Positions 11,491 through 50,083 of a stretch of DNA of 53,683 nucleotides are shown here, piece by piece (within the stretch, counting starts at the first letter, position 1; each line of letters opens with the position of its first letter). The position numbers were made by a program, and so were the translations under genes. Location of the stretch: assembly GCA_013214705.1 (NCBI GenBank), contig JABSRZ010000013.1, positions 1 to 53,683 of the forward strand, given 5' to 3'. The notes under the pieces are model-generated. The model did not search any database and was not told the DNA's origin. It saw nothing but the letters and a program-made list of their open reading frames with translations. Source of the stretch: Hyphomicrobiales bacterium (GTDB lineage Bacteria; Pseudomonadota; Alphaproteobacteria; Rhizobiales; OSC116).

Positions 11491-12258
11491 ATGGTCACAA
11501 AAAAATCAACCACCATTAACCCAGCTGACGTGGCAAATTTTGTAAAAATTGCCGAGCAATGGTGGGACCCTAAAGGCAAATTTGCCCCGCTGCACAAATT
11601 TAACCCGATCAGGCTTAAATATATTCGCAGCCAATTATTGGCGCATTTTAACTTGGCAGCGGCCGAAGGTTTTGATGTAGCGCAACCTTATAACGGCCTG
11701 CGGATTTTAGACATTGGCTGCGGTGGTGGTTTGCTGACCGAACCTATATTTAGGTTGGGGGCAGACATTATCGGCGCCGATGCGGCGGAAAAAAATGTCA
11801 ACATTGCCAGCGCCCATGCGATGGAGCAAGGGTTAGACATAGATTACCGCGCCACAACCTCAGAAGATTTGGCAGCAAATGGCGAAACATTTGACGTTAT
11901 ATTGAATATGGAAGTGATAGAACATGTGGCCGATGTGCCGCTATTTTTATCATCTTGCCAAGCCATGTTAAAGCCCGGCGGCATTATGTTTGTGGCCACT
12001 CTTAACCGCAATTTTAAAAGTTTTGCCATGGCCATTGTGGGGGTGGAATATGTGCTAGGCTGGCTGCCAAAAGGCACGCATAATTGGAGCCAATTTATAA
12101 TCCCCAAGGAATTGCAAGATATGTGCGAAGGGCTAGGCTTAAAACTTATCGATGAAACCGGGGTGAAATATAATCCCCTGAGTGATAGGTTCTCGCTTTC
12201 TGGTGACATGAGCATCAATTATATTCAGGTTTATTCTGAACCCAAGCCCAAGACATAG
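11491..12258 (+). CDS. ubiG: Ubiquinone biosynthesis O-methyltransferase
   Basis: A 255-residue SAM-dependent enzyme that performs both O-methylations in ubiquinone synthesis. N-terminal ANFVKIAEQWWDPKGKFAPL and FNPIRLKYI are specific UbiG signatures. Motif I is ILDIGCGGGLL (residues 72-82), followed by GADIIGADAAEKN and NMEVIEHVADVP. KGTHNWSQFI near the C terminus corresponds to the UbiG membrane-binding region. No strong ribosome site is visible before the ATG. Its 3' flank is the repeat-rich spacer before secA. Confidence 0.95.
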   Translation: MVTKKSTTINPADVANFVKIAEQWWDPKGKFAPLHKFNPIRLKYIRSQLLAHFNLAAAEGFDVAQPYNGLRILDIGCGGGLLTEPIFRLGADIIGADAAEKNVNIASAHAMEQGLDIDYRATTSEDLAANGETFDVILNMEVIEHVADVPLFLSSCQAMLKPGGIMFVATLNRNFKSFAMAIVGVEYVLGWLPKGTHNWSQFIIPKELQDMCEGLGLKLIDETGVKYNPLSDRFSLSGDMSINYIQVYSEPKPKT

Positions 12259-12357
12259 AAAGTTAGCGCTCCTGCCATCACAGGGGTGCTTGCATTTATA
12301 CGTTCTTTCGGCTTCGCCTCTTTCACTGTTGGCGCATTTCGCTGCGCTCAAAGCTTA

Positions 12358-12454
12358 CCTGCGGGCGCACGCCTCCGCGTGCTTGCTACGCCTAACGGCG
12401 GGCCTCAATGGCCAAGTTCGCCAACAAGTTGGCTCGCCCTTTTTACCCACGATC
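12358..12454 (-). repeat. Dispersed intergenic repeat, copy A (minus orientation)
   Basis: First of two facing copies in the 427-base ubiG-secA spacer. The part at 12411-12454 matches 37887-37930 at 43 of 44 positions. Read on the opposite strand, 12358-12439 aligns with 49950-50011 apart from one gap of about 19 bases. It contains a hairpin GCCAAC-AA-GTTGGC and a smaller one, GCACGC-CTCC-GCGTGC. No protein reading frame explains it, and I do not recognise a named family. Confidence 0.75.
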
Positions 12455-12619
12455 AGCATAAATTCGCGGCTCCGAACAGCCGAACACGCGCTCTCTGAAT
12501 ATCACGTTGATTGGGTGCGGGGGGGGCAGACAGAAACTCTGCACAAAGTTACAGGAAGTCTCCCCGAACCAACGAAGTTGGTGAGATGGCCATTGAGGCC
12601 CGCCGTTAGGCGTAGCAAG
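12382..12619. repeat. 33-bp perfect inverted repeat formed by two facing repeat copies
   Basis: Bases 12382-12414 are the exact reverse complement of 12587-12619, with a 172-base interior. The interior also pairs imperfectly near both arms (GCCAACAAGTTGGC against CCAACGAAGTTGG). The structure could extrude as a cruciform or fold in a transcript. It results from copies A and B of the same repeat lying head to head. Confidence 0.85.
12523..12619 (+). repeat. Dispersed intergenic repeat, copy B (plus orientation)
   Basis: Collinear with the copy near amn. GGGGCAGACAGAAACTCTG (12523-12541) recurs exactly at 49914-49932. ATTGAGGCC-(C)GCCGTTAGGCGT (12592-12613) recurs at 49980-50000 with one missing base. 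The spacing between the two blocks is nearly the same in both copies (69 and 66 bases), so this is one element and not chance words. Confidence 0.75.
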
Positions 12620-12666
12620 AGAGCGGAGCGAACGCACGCAGTGTTAAACAGAGAGCGTAGCGAGCG

Positions 12667-12710
12667 TATAAACATGGTAGTTACGCTAGTAACTACCATG
12701 GCAATGTTTA
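12667..12710. other. Hairpin across the secA stop codon
   Basis: GGTAGTTAC-GCTA-GTAACTACC forms a perfect stem (extended to CATGGTAGTTAC/GTAACTACCATG). The flanking TATAAA/TTTATA also pair around a six-base bulge. The SecA stop codon TAG lies in the loop. On the secA strand no T-run follows, so termination is unproven; RNA stabilisation or processing is possible. Confidence 0.5.
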
Positions 12711-23379: not shown

Positions 23380-24546
23380 TTATTTGCCTGCGAGCTTATT
23401 GTCAATGATAAATTGAAATTTAACTTTTTTGGCTTGGGCAGCGGGGTCTTTCATGCCGGATTTAAATGACACAATTTCACCCGCCGCCAAACTGATTTTG
23501 GCAATGTCAATTGGCCAATTAAATATGTTATTGCCGCCAGCATCGATTAAGTAACCGCGCACCTTTGGCAGTGTTTTGCTGCTATTGCTGCTGTTCATAA
23601 TGCTGCCATTTACCAGCAAGAACTCAATGCCATCTTGGGTTTGGTGACGCACATTAATGTTGACAAATTCCAAACCAATAATGTTGGTTTCAAACCCATA
23701 TAATTCATAAGCCGCCGCACTTTTAGGAAAATAATTTATAATCAAATCTTTACCGATGATAAATGTGCCGAGCAAAATAGAGGCGGCAATGCCTAAACCG
23801 CCCCAATAAATAAGCTTTGATTTTTTACGCCTGAGCGGGTTTTTCCGATAAACAGCCGATTGCGAGGGCAGGGCGCGTTCAAACTCAGCTTCATCGGTTT
23901 GTTGCGGGCGGGCTTTGGCTTTTGCGTCTGCGGTTTTAGCCACTGGCGCATCAAACATATCATCTATAGCGTCTTGGTCGTTTTCTTCGCTGGCATTGTC
24001 GTCGTTTGGATTATCATCGCTTGCATTGTCATCGGTAACGGGCGCGGCAAACATGTCATCTATGGCGTTCTGGTCGTTTTCTTCGCTGCCACCTTCATTG
24101 GCATCAGCAGTTGCGAACATATCATCAATTGAGCTTTGATCGTTTTCTTCGCTGCCACCTTCAATGGCATCAGGGGTGGCGAACATATCATCAATTGAGC
24201 TTTGATCGTTTTCTTCGTTTCCATTTTCAACAGCGTCGGGCGTAGCAAACATGTCATCAATTGAACTTTGGTCATTATCTTGGTCAGCGGGTTTGGTGGT
24301 TTTAGCCGCTTCGACCGTGGTTTTTTTGGCAGGCTTGGCTTTATCAGCAATTTTAGTTTTTTCAGCAGTTTTGGGCTTTTCAGCGGTTTTGGGGCTGGGC
24401 TTTGCCGCGGTTTCCGGCTCTGGTTTTGGGTCAAATTCGCGCCACACATGCGCGCAAGACGAGCATTTCAGCTTCCTGCCTTTTGCCCCCATTTGGTCTA
24501 ATCCAATTGCAAATTTCGTCTCACAATTGGGACAAGTAATTTTCAT
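23380..24546 (-). CDS. MJ0042-type zinc-ribbon membrane protein with acidic tandem repeats
   Basis: 388 residues. A zinc ribbon begins the protein (C5-PN-C8, C28-SS-C31). It is followed by a Lys/Ala/Pro-rich stretch and then five repeats containing NDQxxIDDMF, at residues 91, 113, 135, 157 and 189; the first four are spaced exactly 22 residues. One membrane helix lies near 245-265 and a periplasmic domain follows (DUF3426-like). It is divergent from ftsE, an arrangement frequent in alphaproteobacteria, which suggests a link to division or envelope control. The function is unknown. Confidence 0.8.
   Translation of the reverse strand: MKITCPNCETKFAIGLDQMGAKGRKLKCSSCAHVWREFDPKPEPETAAKPSPKTAEKPKTAEKTKIADKAKPAKKTTVEAAKTTKPADQDNDQSSIDDMFATPDAVENGNEENDQSSIDDMFATPDAIEGGSEENDQSSIDDMFATADANEGGSEENDQNAIDDMFAAPVTDDNASDDNPNDDNASEENDQDAIDDMFDAPVAKTADAKAKARPQQTDEAEFERALPSQSAVYRKNPLRRKKSKLIYWGGLGIAASILLGTFIIGKDLIINYFPKSAAAYELYGFETNIIGLEFVNINVRHQTQDGIEFLLVNGSIMNSSNSSKTLPKVRGYLIDAGGNNIFNWPIDIAKISLAAGEIVSFKSGMKDPAAQAKKVKFQFIIDNKLAGK
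24049..24276 (-). repeat. Tandem 66-bp coding repeats
   Basis: Within the zinc-ribbon gene, three near-identical 66-base units (24276 down to 24079) plus a diverged fourth encode 22-residue repeats rich in Asp, Glu, Asn and Ser. Near-identity at DNA level indicates recent expansion by slippage or recombination, and copy number may vary between strains. Confidence 0.85.
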
Positions 24547-25518: not shown

Positions 25519-26967
25519 ATGGTAAATAGACCACCAAATGACCCGCGATATGCACCACTTCAGACCCAACCCAAGCGGCCTCGGCCGCTTGATGGCGAGC
25601 AAATTTACGTTAATGAGGGCCAGTTTCTCAACCAAGGCCATTATGAAAATGCCGAGCAAGTCCACCATCAGATAGATCAAGATTTAAATTCGCCATATCC
25701 ACCCAGCCAACCAGATTATGGTGCAGTTCAGCCACAGGCGGCCGATCACCACGGCTCAGGACAAAGGCAAAGCCAGGCGCAAGGACATGGGCAAGCACAA
25801 GGGCAGGGGCAAGCACAAGGACATGGGCAAGCGCAAGGGCAGGGGCATTTGCGGCAAGAATTTGTCCAAGGCAGTGAATATCAACAACCACCGAGCGATC
25901 AAAACCCGCCCTTTGCCTCGCCTCAAGCTCATGCGCTTGGCGAACAGGTTATAGAAGATGAAAACCCCAAAAGCGGGGTTGGCAGCATTGCCACATTTGG
26001 CAATTCCTTGGCCAATAAAAACCGCGCACCGTCCAAATTATCGCCCATTATCCCGCGTGATAGCATCATCGGCAAAAGCATATTATTCATCATTGTCGCC
26101 ATGTGCTTTCTGGCCAGTCTCTCGATAGTATTTTTGCTGCTGGTGCAATCTAGTGTCGATGGCTGGACATCAGACATTGGCAAGCAAGCCACCGTGCAAA
26201 TCCTCCCGTCGCCAGAGCGCGATGTCGATGCAGATATTGCCACCGCGTTAAAAATTATCCGCGCCACCAACGGCATTGCCTTGGCCGAACCATTGACCAA
26301 AAACGAAACCGCAAAATTGTTAGAACCGTGGATTGGTGATGGCATTATCGGCCAAGATGCCAACAATAATGACATTTCAATATTAGATGAATTGCCCATT
26401 CCGGCGCTCATCGCCTTGGAATTTATCGCCGGTCATAATGTAGATTTAAATCTGCTCGATGTGGCGCTTAAATCGGCCATACCCGGCGCCAGTGTGGATG
26501 ATCATAAAAAATGGTTATCGCATCTTTCATCCATCGGCAATATCTTGAAAATCTCGGCATTCGCAGTGTTGGCATTGGTCATCGGCATCACCATAACCAT
26601 CATTGTTTTTGCCACCGATGCCGCCCTAAATAGCAATAAAACCAGCATCGAAATATTATTCTTAGTCGGTGCCGAAGAAGGCTTCATCACCAAAGAAGTG
26701 CGTTATCATTTCTTATGGTTAGGCCTCAAAGCCGGGGTTTTTGGCGCATTTATTTGCATCGCCTTCATCTTGTTGCTCGGCCTCGTGGTCAACATAATCT
26801 ACGCCGCCCAATTCGATAATCTCGCTGCCGCCCGCATACTTTTCGGCCAAGTCACCCTTTCCCCTTACCAATATCTCTACCTATTATTGGTGCCTTTATT
26901 CACCACAATCATTGCCGGAATTACGGTACACCTCTCCGCCCGCAAAATTATCAACACTCTGCACTGA
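25519..26967 (+). CDS. ftsX: Cell division protein FtsX with long Gln/Gly-repeat N-terminal extension
   Basis: 482 residues, clearly longer than a typical FtsX of about 300. Residues 1-180 are cytoplasmic, polar and Pro/Gln-rich, with a Q-A-Q-G-H-G repeat at 81-110. TM1 is near 187-210. A periplasmic loop follows containing VDADIATALKIIRATNGIALAEPL, the equivalent of the hydrolase-contacting domain. TM2 to TM4 lie near 343-368, 398-430 and 450-478 in the FtsX/MacB-like permease fold. Partners are FtsE and envelope hydrolases. It follows ftsE after 88 bases. Confidence 0.92.
   Translation: MVNRPPNDPRYAPLQTQPKRPRPLDGEQIYVNEGQFLNQGHYENAEQVHHQIDQDLNSPYPPSQPDYGAVQPQAADHHGSGQRQSQAQGHGQAQGQGQAQGHGQAQGQGHLRQEFVQGSEYQQPPSDQNPPFASPQAHALGEQVIEDENPKSGVGSIATFGNSLANKNRAPSKLSPIIPRDSIIGKSILFIIVAMCFLASLSIVFLLLVQSSVDGWTSDIGKQATVQILPSPERDVDADIATALKIIRATNGIALAEPLTKNETAKLLEPWIGDGIIGQDANNNDISILDELPIPALIALEFIAGHNVDLNLLDVALKSAIPGASVDDHKKWLSHLSSIGNILKISAFAVLALVIGITITIIVFATDAALNSNKTSIEILFLVGAEEGFITKEVRYHFLWLGLKAGVFGAFICIAFILLLGLVVNIIYAAQFDNLAAARILFGQVTLSPYQYLYLLLVPLFTTIIAGITVHLSARKIINTLH
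25780..25851 (+). repeat. Two 36-bp tandem repeats coding Gln/Gly in ftsX
   Basis: A 36-base unit beginning CAAGGACATGGGCAAGC at 25780 is repeated at 25816 with few changes, each containing shorter CAAGGGCAGGGGC subrepeats. It encodes the low-complexity extension of FtsX and is prone to length change. Confidence 0.8.
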
Positions 26968-36520: not shown

Positions 36521-37786
36521 ATGCACTATTTTGACTATAAAAATGGCGAATTATACGCCGAAAATGTGAATTTAAAACAAATTGCCGCACAAGTTGGCAC
36601 GCCGTTTTATTGTTATAGCGCGGCGACGTTTCGGCGGCATATAAAAATGTTTCAACAATCCTTTGCCGATCGGGATGCGTTAATTTGCTACGCCATGAAA
36701 GCCAATAGCAACCAAGCTATTTTAACCCTAATCGCCAAATTGGGCGCGGGGGTGGATGTGGTTTCGGGCGGCGAAATGTTGCGCGCGGTCAAAGCTGGTT
36801 TCGCGCCAGATAAAATTGTTTATTCGGGCGTGGCAAAAACCCATGCCGAAATAGAATATGGCTTAAAAATTGGCATTCATTGTTTTAACGCCGAAAGTGA
36901 ACCTGAGCTAGAACGGATCAACCAAATTGCTGCCAAAATGGGGGTTATAGCCCCGGTTTCGGTGCGGGTGAACCCAGATGTAGATGCCGGGGGGCATGAG
37001 AAAATTATGACTGGCAAGGCCGAAAATAAATTTGGCATCCCGTGGAAGAAAATTGACGGGGTTTATGAGCTGATTGCTGGGCTTAAGAATTTGCAAGTTG
37101 TCGGCATTGATTTGCACATTGGCAGCCAAATTACTGATTTAAAACCGTTTGCTGAGGCCTTTGAACGGGTCGGCAGTTTGGTGAAGGGCCTGCGCAAAGC
37201 CGGGCATAAAATTGCCCATGTCGACTTTGGCGGCGGCTTAGGTGTGCCTTATAAAAATGACAATGATATACCGCCGCACCCCGATGAATATGCGGCAATG
37301 ATAAATAAAGTGGCGGGCGATTTGGGGGTTAAATATATTTTTGAACCCGGGCGGATGATTGCCGCCAATGCTGGCATTTTGGTCGGCAAGGTTGAATATG
37401 TAAAACATGGTGATGGTCGCGATTTTTTAATTAGCGATGTGGGTATGAATGACTTGATTAGGCCAACATTATATGATGCCTATCATGATATTTTACCGCT
37501 CATTGAGCCGCAAGATGGGTTTGAAACCCAGCTGGTAGATGTGGTTGGCCCGGTGTGCGAAACTGGCGATTATACCGCCAAGGGCCGCGATTTACCAGTG
37601 TTTGAAGCCGGAGATTTATTTGCCATTATGAGCGCAGGGGCGTATGGCGCGGTGCAAGCGGGCACTTATAACACCAGAGCTCTGATACCCGAAATATTGG
37701 TAGATGATGATAAGTTTGCAGTGGTACGCAAGCGGGTCGAAGTTGAGGATATTATTGGCCTAGACTCCGTGCCGGATTGGATTTAG
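36521..37786 (+). CDS. lysA: Diaminopimelate decarboxylase
   Basis: 421 residues of the fold-type III PLP family. The PLP lysine is K60 in ICYAMKANSN, the glycine-rich phosphate loop is HVDFGGGLGVPY, and the C-terminal GPVCETGDY supplies the active-site cysteine from the neighbouring subunit. It makes lysine from meso-diaminopimelate. AGGG ribosome site. Probably co-transcribed with argH. Its 3' flank is a dispersed repeat copy. Confidence 0.97.
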   Translation: MHYFDYKNGELYAENVNLKQIAAQVGTPFYCYSAATFRRHIKMFQQSFADRDALICYAMKANSNQAILTLIAKLGAGVDVVSGGEMLRAVKAGFAPDKIVYSGVAKTHAEIEYGLKIGIHCFNAESEPELERINQIAAKMGVIAPVSVRVNPDVDAGGHEKIMTGKAENKFGIPWKKIDGVYELIAGLKNLQVVGIDLHIGSQITDLKPFAEAFERVGSLVKGLRKAGHKIAHVDFGGGLGVPYKNDNDIPPHPDEYAAMINKVAGDLGVKYIFEPGRMIAANAGILVGKVEYVKHGDGRDFLISDVGMNDLIRPTLYDAYHDILPLIEPQDGFETQLVDVVGPVCETGDYTAKGRDLPVFEAGDLFAIMSAGAYGAVQAGTYNTRALIPEILVDDDKFAVVRKRVEVEDIIGLDSVPDWI

Positions 37787-37822
37787 TTTTTTTGCTTAAC
37801 ACTGCGTGCGCAAACTCCGTTT

Positions 37823-37930
37823 GCTTGCTACGCCCTAACGGGCGGGCCGAACCTAAATTAAATAATTCGCAGGCGAATTAATGGGAGCCAAGTTCGCCAA
37901 CAAGTTGGCTCGCCCTTTTTCCCCACGATC
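37823..37930 (-). repeat. Dispersed intergenic repeat, copy C
   Basis: Occupies most of the 210-base lysA-ada gap. 37887-37930 matches copy A (12411-12454) with one mismatch in 44. The preceding GCTTGCTACGCC and GGCGGGCC words match copy A but with an unrelated insert that forms its own stem, TAATTCGC-AG-GCGAATTA (37863-37880). Its orientation is the same as copy A. Confidence 0.75.
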
Positions 37931-37996
37931 TGTATTAAAAAATATAGTTGTTAAGTTTTCGGTAGCGGTGGATATGGTGGGAGCTATACTGGCTGG

Positions 37997-49365: not shown

Positions 49366-49776
49366 ATGAAAACATCAAAAATTTTAATAGCCATTGCTAT
49401 GGCGACAAGCTTGACCGCTTGCGGTGTTATCGGCGGTTCAAAACCTGCCGTGGTGGTGGTGAAAACACCAGTGGCACCAACGACGGCTGAAATTATGGCT
49501 AGGTTGGACGGGGTTACCATATCCAACAACGTGATTACGGCGACATTCTCGGCTCATGGCACGTCTACAGGTATATTTACTGCCAGCAAAACCAAATATT
49601 CATCGACATGGAGAATTGTTGATGGCAAATATTGCCGCACATTTATAAAAGGCTATGTCGCACCAGAAAAATGCGCCGATGTGGTGGCAGTTTATGATGC
49701 AGATGGCAAAATTATCGGCATTAAGCTAATTGATGAAAAAGCCACAACGGAATATGTGACTGATATGCCGGCTTAA
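49366..49776 (+). CDS. Small lipoprotein of unknown function
   Basis: 136 residues. A signal peptide ends in the lipobox L16-T-A-C19. The mature part contains LDGVTISNNVITATFSAHGT, YSSTWRIVDGKYCRTFIKG and two further cysteines. No family recognised; the WRIVDGKYC segment looks like a small beta-sandwich repeat used by envelope proteins. AAGAAGG ribosome site. It stands alone 128 bases after the operon end and is followed by a repeat element. Confidence 0.75.
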   Translation: MKTSKILIAIAMATSLTACGVIGGSKPAVVVVKTPVAPTTAEIMARLDGVTISNNVITATFSAHGTSTGIFTASKTKYSSTWRIVDGKYCRTFIKGYVAPEKCADVVAVYDADGKIIGIKLIDEKATTEYVTDMPA

Positions 49777-50083
49777 TATCGCTCACGGCCACACCGCGCT
49801 TTGCGCTGGCCTACGCGGGTGCGCCACATAAGTGGCGGCCTCCAATCCGGCTGGTTCAAAAAACACATGAGTTTTTTGAACGGGAGTTATACTGCATCTT
49901 TGTGCTGATGCGAGGGGCAGACAGAAACTCTGAATGTATATGGAACAAAGGGCGAGCCAATTTATTGGCGAACCTGCCGATTGAGGCCGCCGTTAGGCGT
50001 GCGCCCGCAGGGGCCACTGGCCCGCCGAAAGGTGGGCGTAAAAATGCAAACTTCCAGTGCGTTGGCAGGAGTGCCACCAACCC
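49777..50083 (+). repeat. Dispersed intergenic repeat, copy D (structured)
   Basis: Fills the 307-base gap between the lipoprotein gene and amn. It contains GGGGCAGACAGAAACTCTG (49914-49932), a hairpin GCCAAT-TT-ATTGGC (within 49950-49972), GCCGTTAGGCGT, GGGCC-ACT-GGCCC and a GAAA-capped stem (50020-50037). 49950-50011 is the inverted copy of 12358-12439. GTTCAAAAAAC/GTTTTTTGAAC (49854-49881) forms another 11-bp hairpin. No coding potential is convincing. Confidence 0.8.

Follow-up and report, generated by a model that had tools for sequence, protein, structure and literature searches.

A mosaic family of intergenic palindromes, confined to one Hyphomicrobiales genus among the genomes searched, whose hairpin stems change letters and keep pairing

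Mosaic repeat tracts and the anatomy of their units

The window analysed here, a 53,683-nucleotide stretch of contig JABSRZ010000013.1 from a Hyphomicrobiales bacterium (assembly GCA_013214705.1), carries tracts of repeated hairpins next to the stops of its genes. The tracts, their units and their hairpins are as follows.

49773-50078, unstranded: mosaic repeat tract D, filling the gap between the convergent ORF stops 49776 and 50084 (self-comparison, ORFs)
49854-49881, unstranded: hairpin of unrelated sequence, GTTCAAAAAAC/GTTTTTTGAAC, in the inverted left half of tract D (sequence, self-comparison)
49916-49932, plus strand: composite-end motif GGCAGACAGAAACTCTG in tract D (motif match)
49940-50020, plus strand: repeat unit D, shortened, without the variable slot hairpin (covariance model match)
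49956-49969, plus strand: H1 of unit D, T-A allele GCCAAT-TT-ATTGGC, with GA on both flanks (sequence)
49976-49987, plus strand: H3 of unit D, GCC-GATTGA-GGC, short form of a two-form element (placed by eye)
49988-49999, plus strand: H4 of unit D, CGCC-GTTA-GGCG, 4-bp form, elsewhere CGCCC-GTTA-GGGCG (placed by eye)
50004-50012, plus strand: H6 of unit D, CCC-GCA-GGG, elsewhere CAC-GCA-GTG (placed by eye)
50021-50036, plus strand: H7 in tract D, CCCGCC-GAAA-GGTGGG (placed by eye)
12250-12668, unstranded: mosaic tract A/B, between convergent genes, a methyltransferase gene (stop 12258) and secA (stop 12686)
12349-12449, minus strand: repeat unit A (covariance model match)
12367-12382, minus strand: variable slot hairpin of copy A, GCACGC-GGAG-GCGTGC (sequence)
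12420-12433, unit strand minus: H1 of copy A, C-G allele (exact match)
12552-12651, plus strand: repeat unit B, with H1 = ACCAAC-GAA-GTTGGT (covariance model match)
37786-37932, unstranded: single-unit tract C, immediately 3' of the stop of a decarboxylase gene
37792-37925, minus strand: repeat unit C, in which a longer hairpin replaces H3 (covariance model match)
37810-37824, minus strand: variable slot hairpin of copy C, GCAAAC-GGA-GTTTGC (sequence)
37896-37909, unit strand minus: H1 of copy C, C-G allele (exact match)

H1 is one hairpin of a repeat unit of about 100 nt. The 5' part of the unit runs from an A-rich start through GGCGA, H1 and GAAC to H3 and H4, and the 3' part consists of TAGC, the variable slot hairpin H5, GC, H6 and often H7. 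H3 occurs in two forms, GCCGACTGAGGC or GGCCATTGAGGCC, H4 is CGCC(C)-GTTA-(G)GGCG, H6 is CAC-GCA-GTG or CCC-GCA-GGG, and H7 is CCCGCC-GAAA-GGTGGG. The GTTAGGC within H4 resembles the core box of integron attC sites. A second unit type (L096, L113, L142 and others, in the sister genomes G001, G002 and G005) has CAGCGGCTGAGTGGCTTAGC before the same slot hairpin and a different upstream part.

Units are often joined head to head into composites, many of which carry GGCAGACNGAAACTCNG at their ends; this motif is absent from the ends of single units. Of six tracts inspected at their ends, five measured 458-522 bp and one 180 bp. No target-site duplication was evident by eye at six composite tracts, some of which lack one or both intact ends. 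The search for the composite-end motif with up to 3 mismatches returned 105 matches, compared with 50 for a reversed-pattern control, and no autonomous partner element was seen among the matches listed. In the composite centre, no frame starting at the one ATG-containing motif tested is conserved; the 112 reading frames from that motif mostly stop early and disagree with one another, a few being ordinary genes, and a coding function was discarded. Repeats of other kinds also occur in the window, namely 66-nt tandem repeats at 23942-24289, apparently within a reading frame, and short direct repeats of 12/18 nt at 25758-25855, within a 482-aa frame (25519-26967).

Covariation and kept pairing in the hairpin stems

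The original prediction held that a base pair in the H1 stem had been exchanged between repeat copies, with GCCAAC-AA-GTTGGC in copies A and C and GCCAAT-AA-ATTGGC on the opposite strand in copy D. The first 14-mer was found exactly at 12420-12433 and 37896-37909, both on the plus strand, and the second was confirmed on the minus strand at 49956-49969 as GCCAATAAATTGGC. The only two differences within the 14 nt, C-to-T and G-to-A, lie at mirror positions and change the innermost stem pair from C-G to T-A. In copy B (12552-12653), the stem at 12568-12582 is of a third kind, ACCAAC-GAA-GTTGGT. The H1 loop reads AA on the strand used in the original prediction and TT on the strand that we argue below to be the folding one. 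With up to 3 mismatches, the window held 24 matches to the 14-mer, palindromes being scored on both strands, compared with a shuffled mean of 8.58, and none of 100 shuffles reached this number. The H1 dimorphism alone is weak evidence, because two alleles could trace to a single event.

The analysis was extended to the genome that holds the window (G000; 3.5 Mb, 45 contigs), in which 36 places match an H1 core pattern, and to five further genomes of the genus (G001-G005). The SecA of G000 is about 60% identical to a Sinorhizobium SecA from a plasmid collection, which makes its bearer probably alphaproteobacterial. Among the 44 units listed from G000, copy C (long insert) and six GAA-type rows (misaligned at H1) were removed, leaving 37 aligned units, with 21 C-G, 15 T-A and 1 T-C at the dimorphic pair. 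The covariation test with a shuffled control that the original prediction had called for gave a score of 0.212, compared with 0.082 after shuffling (0 of 500 shuffles as high), and the score fell to 0.056 or less when the pairing partner was slid. Paired cells amounted to 93.5%, compared with 84.4% after shuffling. Further compensatory pairs were present: 8 of the 20 pairs were doubly changed (5.4 after shuffling; 1 of 500 shuffles as high), one in H1, two in H4, four in H5 and one in H6, and 71 cells were doubly changed, compared with 27.7 after shuffling. The number of further pair types showed no excess in these 37 units (16, compared with 17.8). Both H1 alleles were found with both H3 forms and with both H4 forms, indicating that the modules recombine or that the changes recur.

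Across the genus, compensation goes further, and whole stems are swapped with their pairing retained. The H1 stems of the six genomes include GCCAAC/GTTGGC, GCCAAT/ATTGGC, ACCAAC/GTTGGT, AGCC/GGCT and ACCC/GGGT, together with long stems rich in A/T, found in the low-copy genomes, so that the stem is replaced outright and still paired. In total, 37 of 40 H1 cells were pairable (10 distinct outer arm pairs, 84 instances), compared with a shuffled maximum of 0.900; a few stems are broken by T-C, T-T, C-T or A-C at one pair. Under a pattern that does not require the flank, 86 of 105 cases had GA to the left of H1 and 88 had it to the right. These two counts are informative, whereas GA in 37/37 aligned units is not, since those units came from a pattern demanding GA flanks.

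The slot hairpin H5 was pairable in 96 of 96 cells (16 distinct stems, 74 instances; five G.T, no A.C, no other mismatch) and, in the comparison with shuffling, in 70 of 70 (shuffled maximum 0.843); both counts leave out GAGAGC-type slots, which with near variants make up 34 of 102 and have just two Watson-Crick pairs beside the loop. The second slot held 47 distinct fillings in 80 instances; most are hairpins, but 18 do not fold under a simple rule. When distinct arms were shuffled, the level observed for H4 was reached in 10 of 1000 trials, and H3, H6 and H7 were not significant. Two other pairings were rejected. A closing stem P1 (GGGCG with CGCCC, competing with H4) seemed to covary between two subfamilies but failed by eye in GAA-type copies and in G003 and G004, and a fold joining the 3' arm of H1 to H3 gave, at its diagnostic pair, 11 G-C, 2 A-T, 1 G-T and 10 broken pairs (9 A-C, 1 C-C) in 24 short-form rows. 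These results show that the hairpin stems change letters and keep pairing, in many copies of the window's own genome and of its genus, which supports the proposal of selection on a folded nucleic acid.

Distribution, genomic place and relation to known repeats

The covariance model found 55, 74, 44, 7, 5 and 68 units in G000 to G005, respectively, about 250 in all and in every one of the six genomes, and none in 35 other genomes of the order. The G000 search scored 99 of 1941 first-look candidates, and its 55 units are possibly a lower bound. Two sister-genome contigs (G005:C17 and G001:C43) end within or beside a tract; therefore, the copy numbers there may be too low. No phage matched a unit, no plasmid matched a tract and viral contigs lacked the exact H1 pattern, and a phage or plasmid origin was dropped. 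Exact matches to the H1 pattern, one each in nine unrelated genomes, were taken as chance.

For the genomic surroundings, we took 53 G000 tracts, namely those with query modules rather than all in the genome, using simple ORF calls. Both neighbours could be assigned for 49 of them, with 25 convergent, 22 codirectional (15 '++' and 7 '--') and 2 divergent gene pairs; the arrangement at the other 4 of the 53 was not assignable. Stops often lie within 20 nt of a tract. At codirectional tracts, the units listed lean toward the sense strand (15 sense, 7 antisense; by eye, not significant). The CcrM methylation site GANTC is 3.7-fold denser in tracts than elsewhere (2.67 compared with 0.73 per kb; 53 sites in 19.8 kb of tracts and 123 in 168 kb of other fetched sequence), yet it occurs in none of the 37 aligned units.

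Elements differ at corresponding sites between genomes. The right-hand flank of site C is shared by G000, G005 and G001, yet the elements behind the same gene differ: in G005 and G001, a different composite of about 500 bp precedes the flank found in G000. By eye, G003 and G004 have no repeat behind the stop of this gene, and the next gene there differs. At site D, the AMP nucleosidase gene is followed by a tract in G002 as well and, by eye, by none in G003 or G004. The family has expanded within part of the genus, and its turnover seems fast.

As in the REP/REPIN/BIME families, many short intergenic palindromes occur here at high copy number, partly as inverted doublets, and in mosaic clusters. 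REPINs are on record as showing compensatory changes in their hairpin arms (PMC3116915), so such changes alone are nothing new, and folded single-stranded DNA is described as the REP/RAYT substrate (PMC8266576). Unlike REP/REPIN sequences, the stems vary and several different hairpins stand in strings; GTAGC precedes many slot hairpins, resembling the GTAG of those families, but so do TTAGC, TTGC and CAGC. A further difference is that the four high-copy genomes hold no RAYT above the Pfam cut-off. For PF01797 (Y1_Tnp), G000 gave no match at E ≤ 0.001 and, at E ≤ 0.1, one 14.5-bit match below the cut-off, and none was found at E ≤ 0.1 in G001, G002 (71% complete), G003 or G005. The low-copy genome G004 gave three matches (L210, L212 and L213). 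Of four short repeat motifs looked for around these G004 genes, a single one, perhaps by chance, lies near each of L210 and L213, and L212 lacks them all.

The CIR elements of Caulobacter and Brucella, compared here by description only, are likewise alphaproteobacterial, about 110 bp long and intergenic, with two hairpin arms and a linker (PMC2229807); they carry CcrM sites, which here are dense in the tracts yet missing from the aligned units. Br-REP1/2 of Bradyrhizobium resemble the present family in forming palindrome strings, in lying at 3' ends between convergent genes and in varying strongly in copy number between species, but their printed consensus sequences are other ones, and the section describing them mentions no variable-stem slots (PMC5082802). 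MITEs such as Correia/NEMIS and RUP are also small, mainly intergenic and without a conserved frame (here judged from one ATG motif); the motif at the ends of composites may correspond to their terminal inverted repeats. Here, no target duplication was evident by eye at the six tracts inspected, and no parent transposon was found. At the level of titles, no description of this family was recognised in the literature on such repeats. It has location or lineage in common with Br-REPs and CIRs.

The folded strand and the molecule

On the strand with the GA-flanked H1, stem mismatches comprised 13 G.T and 3 A.C. With more loci, the counts were 15 and 2 once non-unit H4 rows had been removed by eye, one of the 15 G.T belonging to a stem that has lost a base, and 23 and 9 with the H4 rows kept (one-sided 0.010), most low-pairing H4 rows not being units. 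The G.T excess argues against symmetric duplex recognition or cruciforms, which would give equal numbers of G.T and A.C. The loops have a polarity as well. The anchored loop instances (slots and H1) numbered 323, of which 49 did not fold, and the 274 folded ones comprised 91 GNA, 53 GNNA, 44 GNAB, 24 CNNG and 62 other loops, with 1 TNNC (a TTTA variant) and no TNC. The wobble pairs and loop polarity that are kept are thus those of the strand carrying the GA-flanked H1.

In DNA, GNAB loops are stable, as are tandem G.A pairs of the PyGAPu type. GNA and GNNA loops account for over half of the 120 distinct folded sequences (45 and 31, respectively) and are enriched among hairpins of the tracts (86 of 337, 25.5%) compared with those outside (47 of 1063, 4.4%; both strands counted). 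The third base of GNNA was Y in 36 of 53 instances and, among distinct loops, in 25 (R in 6), unlike the RNA GNRA rule. In DNA, GNA and GNNA loops form extraordinarily stable mini-hairpins (PMC4686876). Folding energies of six units discriminated neither strand nor molecule, with z-scores of -1.1 to -4.2 (plus) and -0.7 to -3.2 (minus) for DNA and -1.2 to -3.1 (plus) and -1.2 to -3.5 (minus) for RNA. From the loop sequences, on which this step rests, we moderately favour single-stranded DNA over RNA as the folded form.

The competing possibility that the hairpins are selected in transcripts, as 3'-end terminators or exonuclease barriers, is a serious one, although we think it unlikely. It would suit the preference for convergent and codirectional gene pairs, the nearby stops and the sense lean of codirectional units. 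The loop families named as stable in RNA are GNRA, UNCG and CUUG (PMC8794818); the C-TT-G loop of H1, read as CTTG in 19 of 91 cases, is of the CUUG type and H7 GAAA of the GNRA type, and the CNNG loops of H1 therefore fit RNA as well. The H1 loop and the sense lean also count against a folded DNA strand. In Bradyrhizobium, REP-like elements in 3' UTRs between convergent genes are described as having cDNA read coverage (PMC5082802). On the other side, 25 of 31 distinct GNNA loops break the GNRA rule, and GNA loops dominate elsewhere. Searches of Rfam 15 found, at the gathering thresholds, only a tRNA elsewhere in the window and, for one own-genome tract at E ≤ 5, a chance-level match only.

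Template switching within hairpins, in which one arm is copied onto the other, would create paired changes in one event with no selection on folding, and can do so at once (PMC8794818). It would explain why whole stems differ between slots yet stay perfect, and palindromic gene conversion of this kind had already been named as an alternative in the original prediction. We consider it a poor candidate, retaining some plausibility: one-sided intermediates exist, mostly G.T on one strand, the anchored loops hold one polarity and the loop sequence is constrained in tracts compared with outside, so that the G.T intermediates and the fixed loop polarity favour selection on one folded strand. The polarity argument is weakened by loop inversions being rare under template switching too (PMC8794818). 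A dyad-symmetric, operator-like protein site on double-stranded DNA, for which the perfect symmetry of H1 speaks, is very improbable given that the letters of H1 are exchanged from species to species and from copy to copy with pairing kept and that the G.T/A.C asymmetry is unexpected for duplex DNA.

Our best explanation, for which we regard the case as evenly balanced, is a genus-specific, mosaic, REPIN/CIR-like family of intergenic palindromes maintained through a folded single strand. Its units, about 100 nt long, and its inverted composites, about 460-520 nt long, are short hairpins strung together by conserved linkers. The folded form would be single-stranded DNA, exposed during replication or a strand-transfer step, and the hairpins would copy or protect the element. 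Such repeats should be least harmful just 3' of stop codons, and at this position they may in addition terminate or shield transcripts. No mobilising gene was found, the Y1_Tnp search of the high-copy genomes having stayed below the cut-off, and the mobilising enzyme appears not to be a Y1/RAYT transposase. A fuller proposal would make these repeats mobile and have selection act on nothing but the shape of their single-stranded DNA, with interchangeable GNA/GNNA mini-hairpins in slots between conserved linkers and copying via the folded strand by an enzyme other than a Y1-HUH one; this is speculative, and we think it unlikely.

With about 250 units and many natural paired changes, this family makes it possible to ask whether it is DNA or RNA folding that maintains bacterial intergenic palindromes such as REP-like repeats, and loop statistics provide a means to separate DNA from RNA folding using sequence only.
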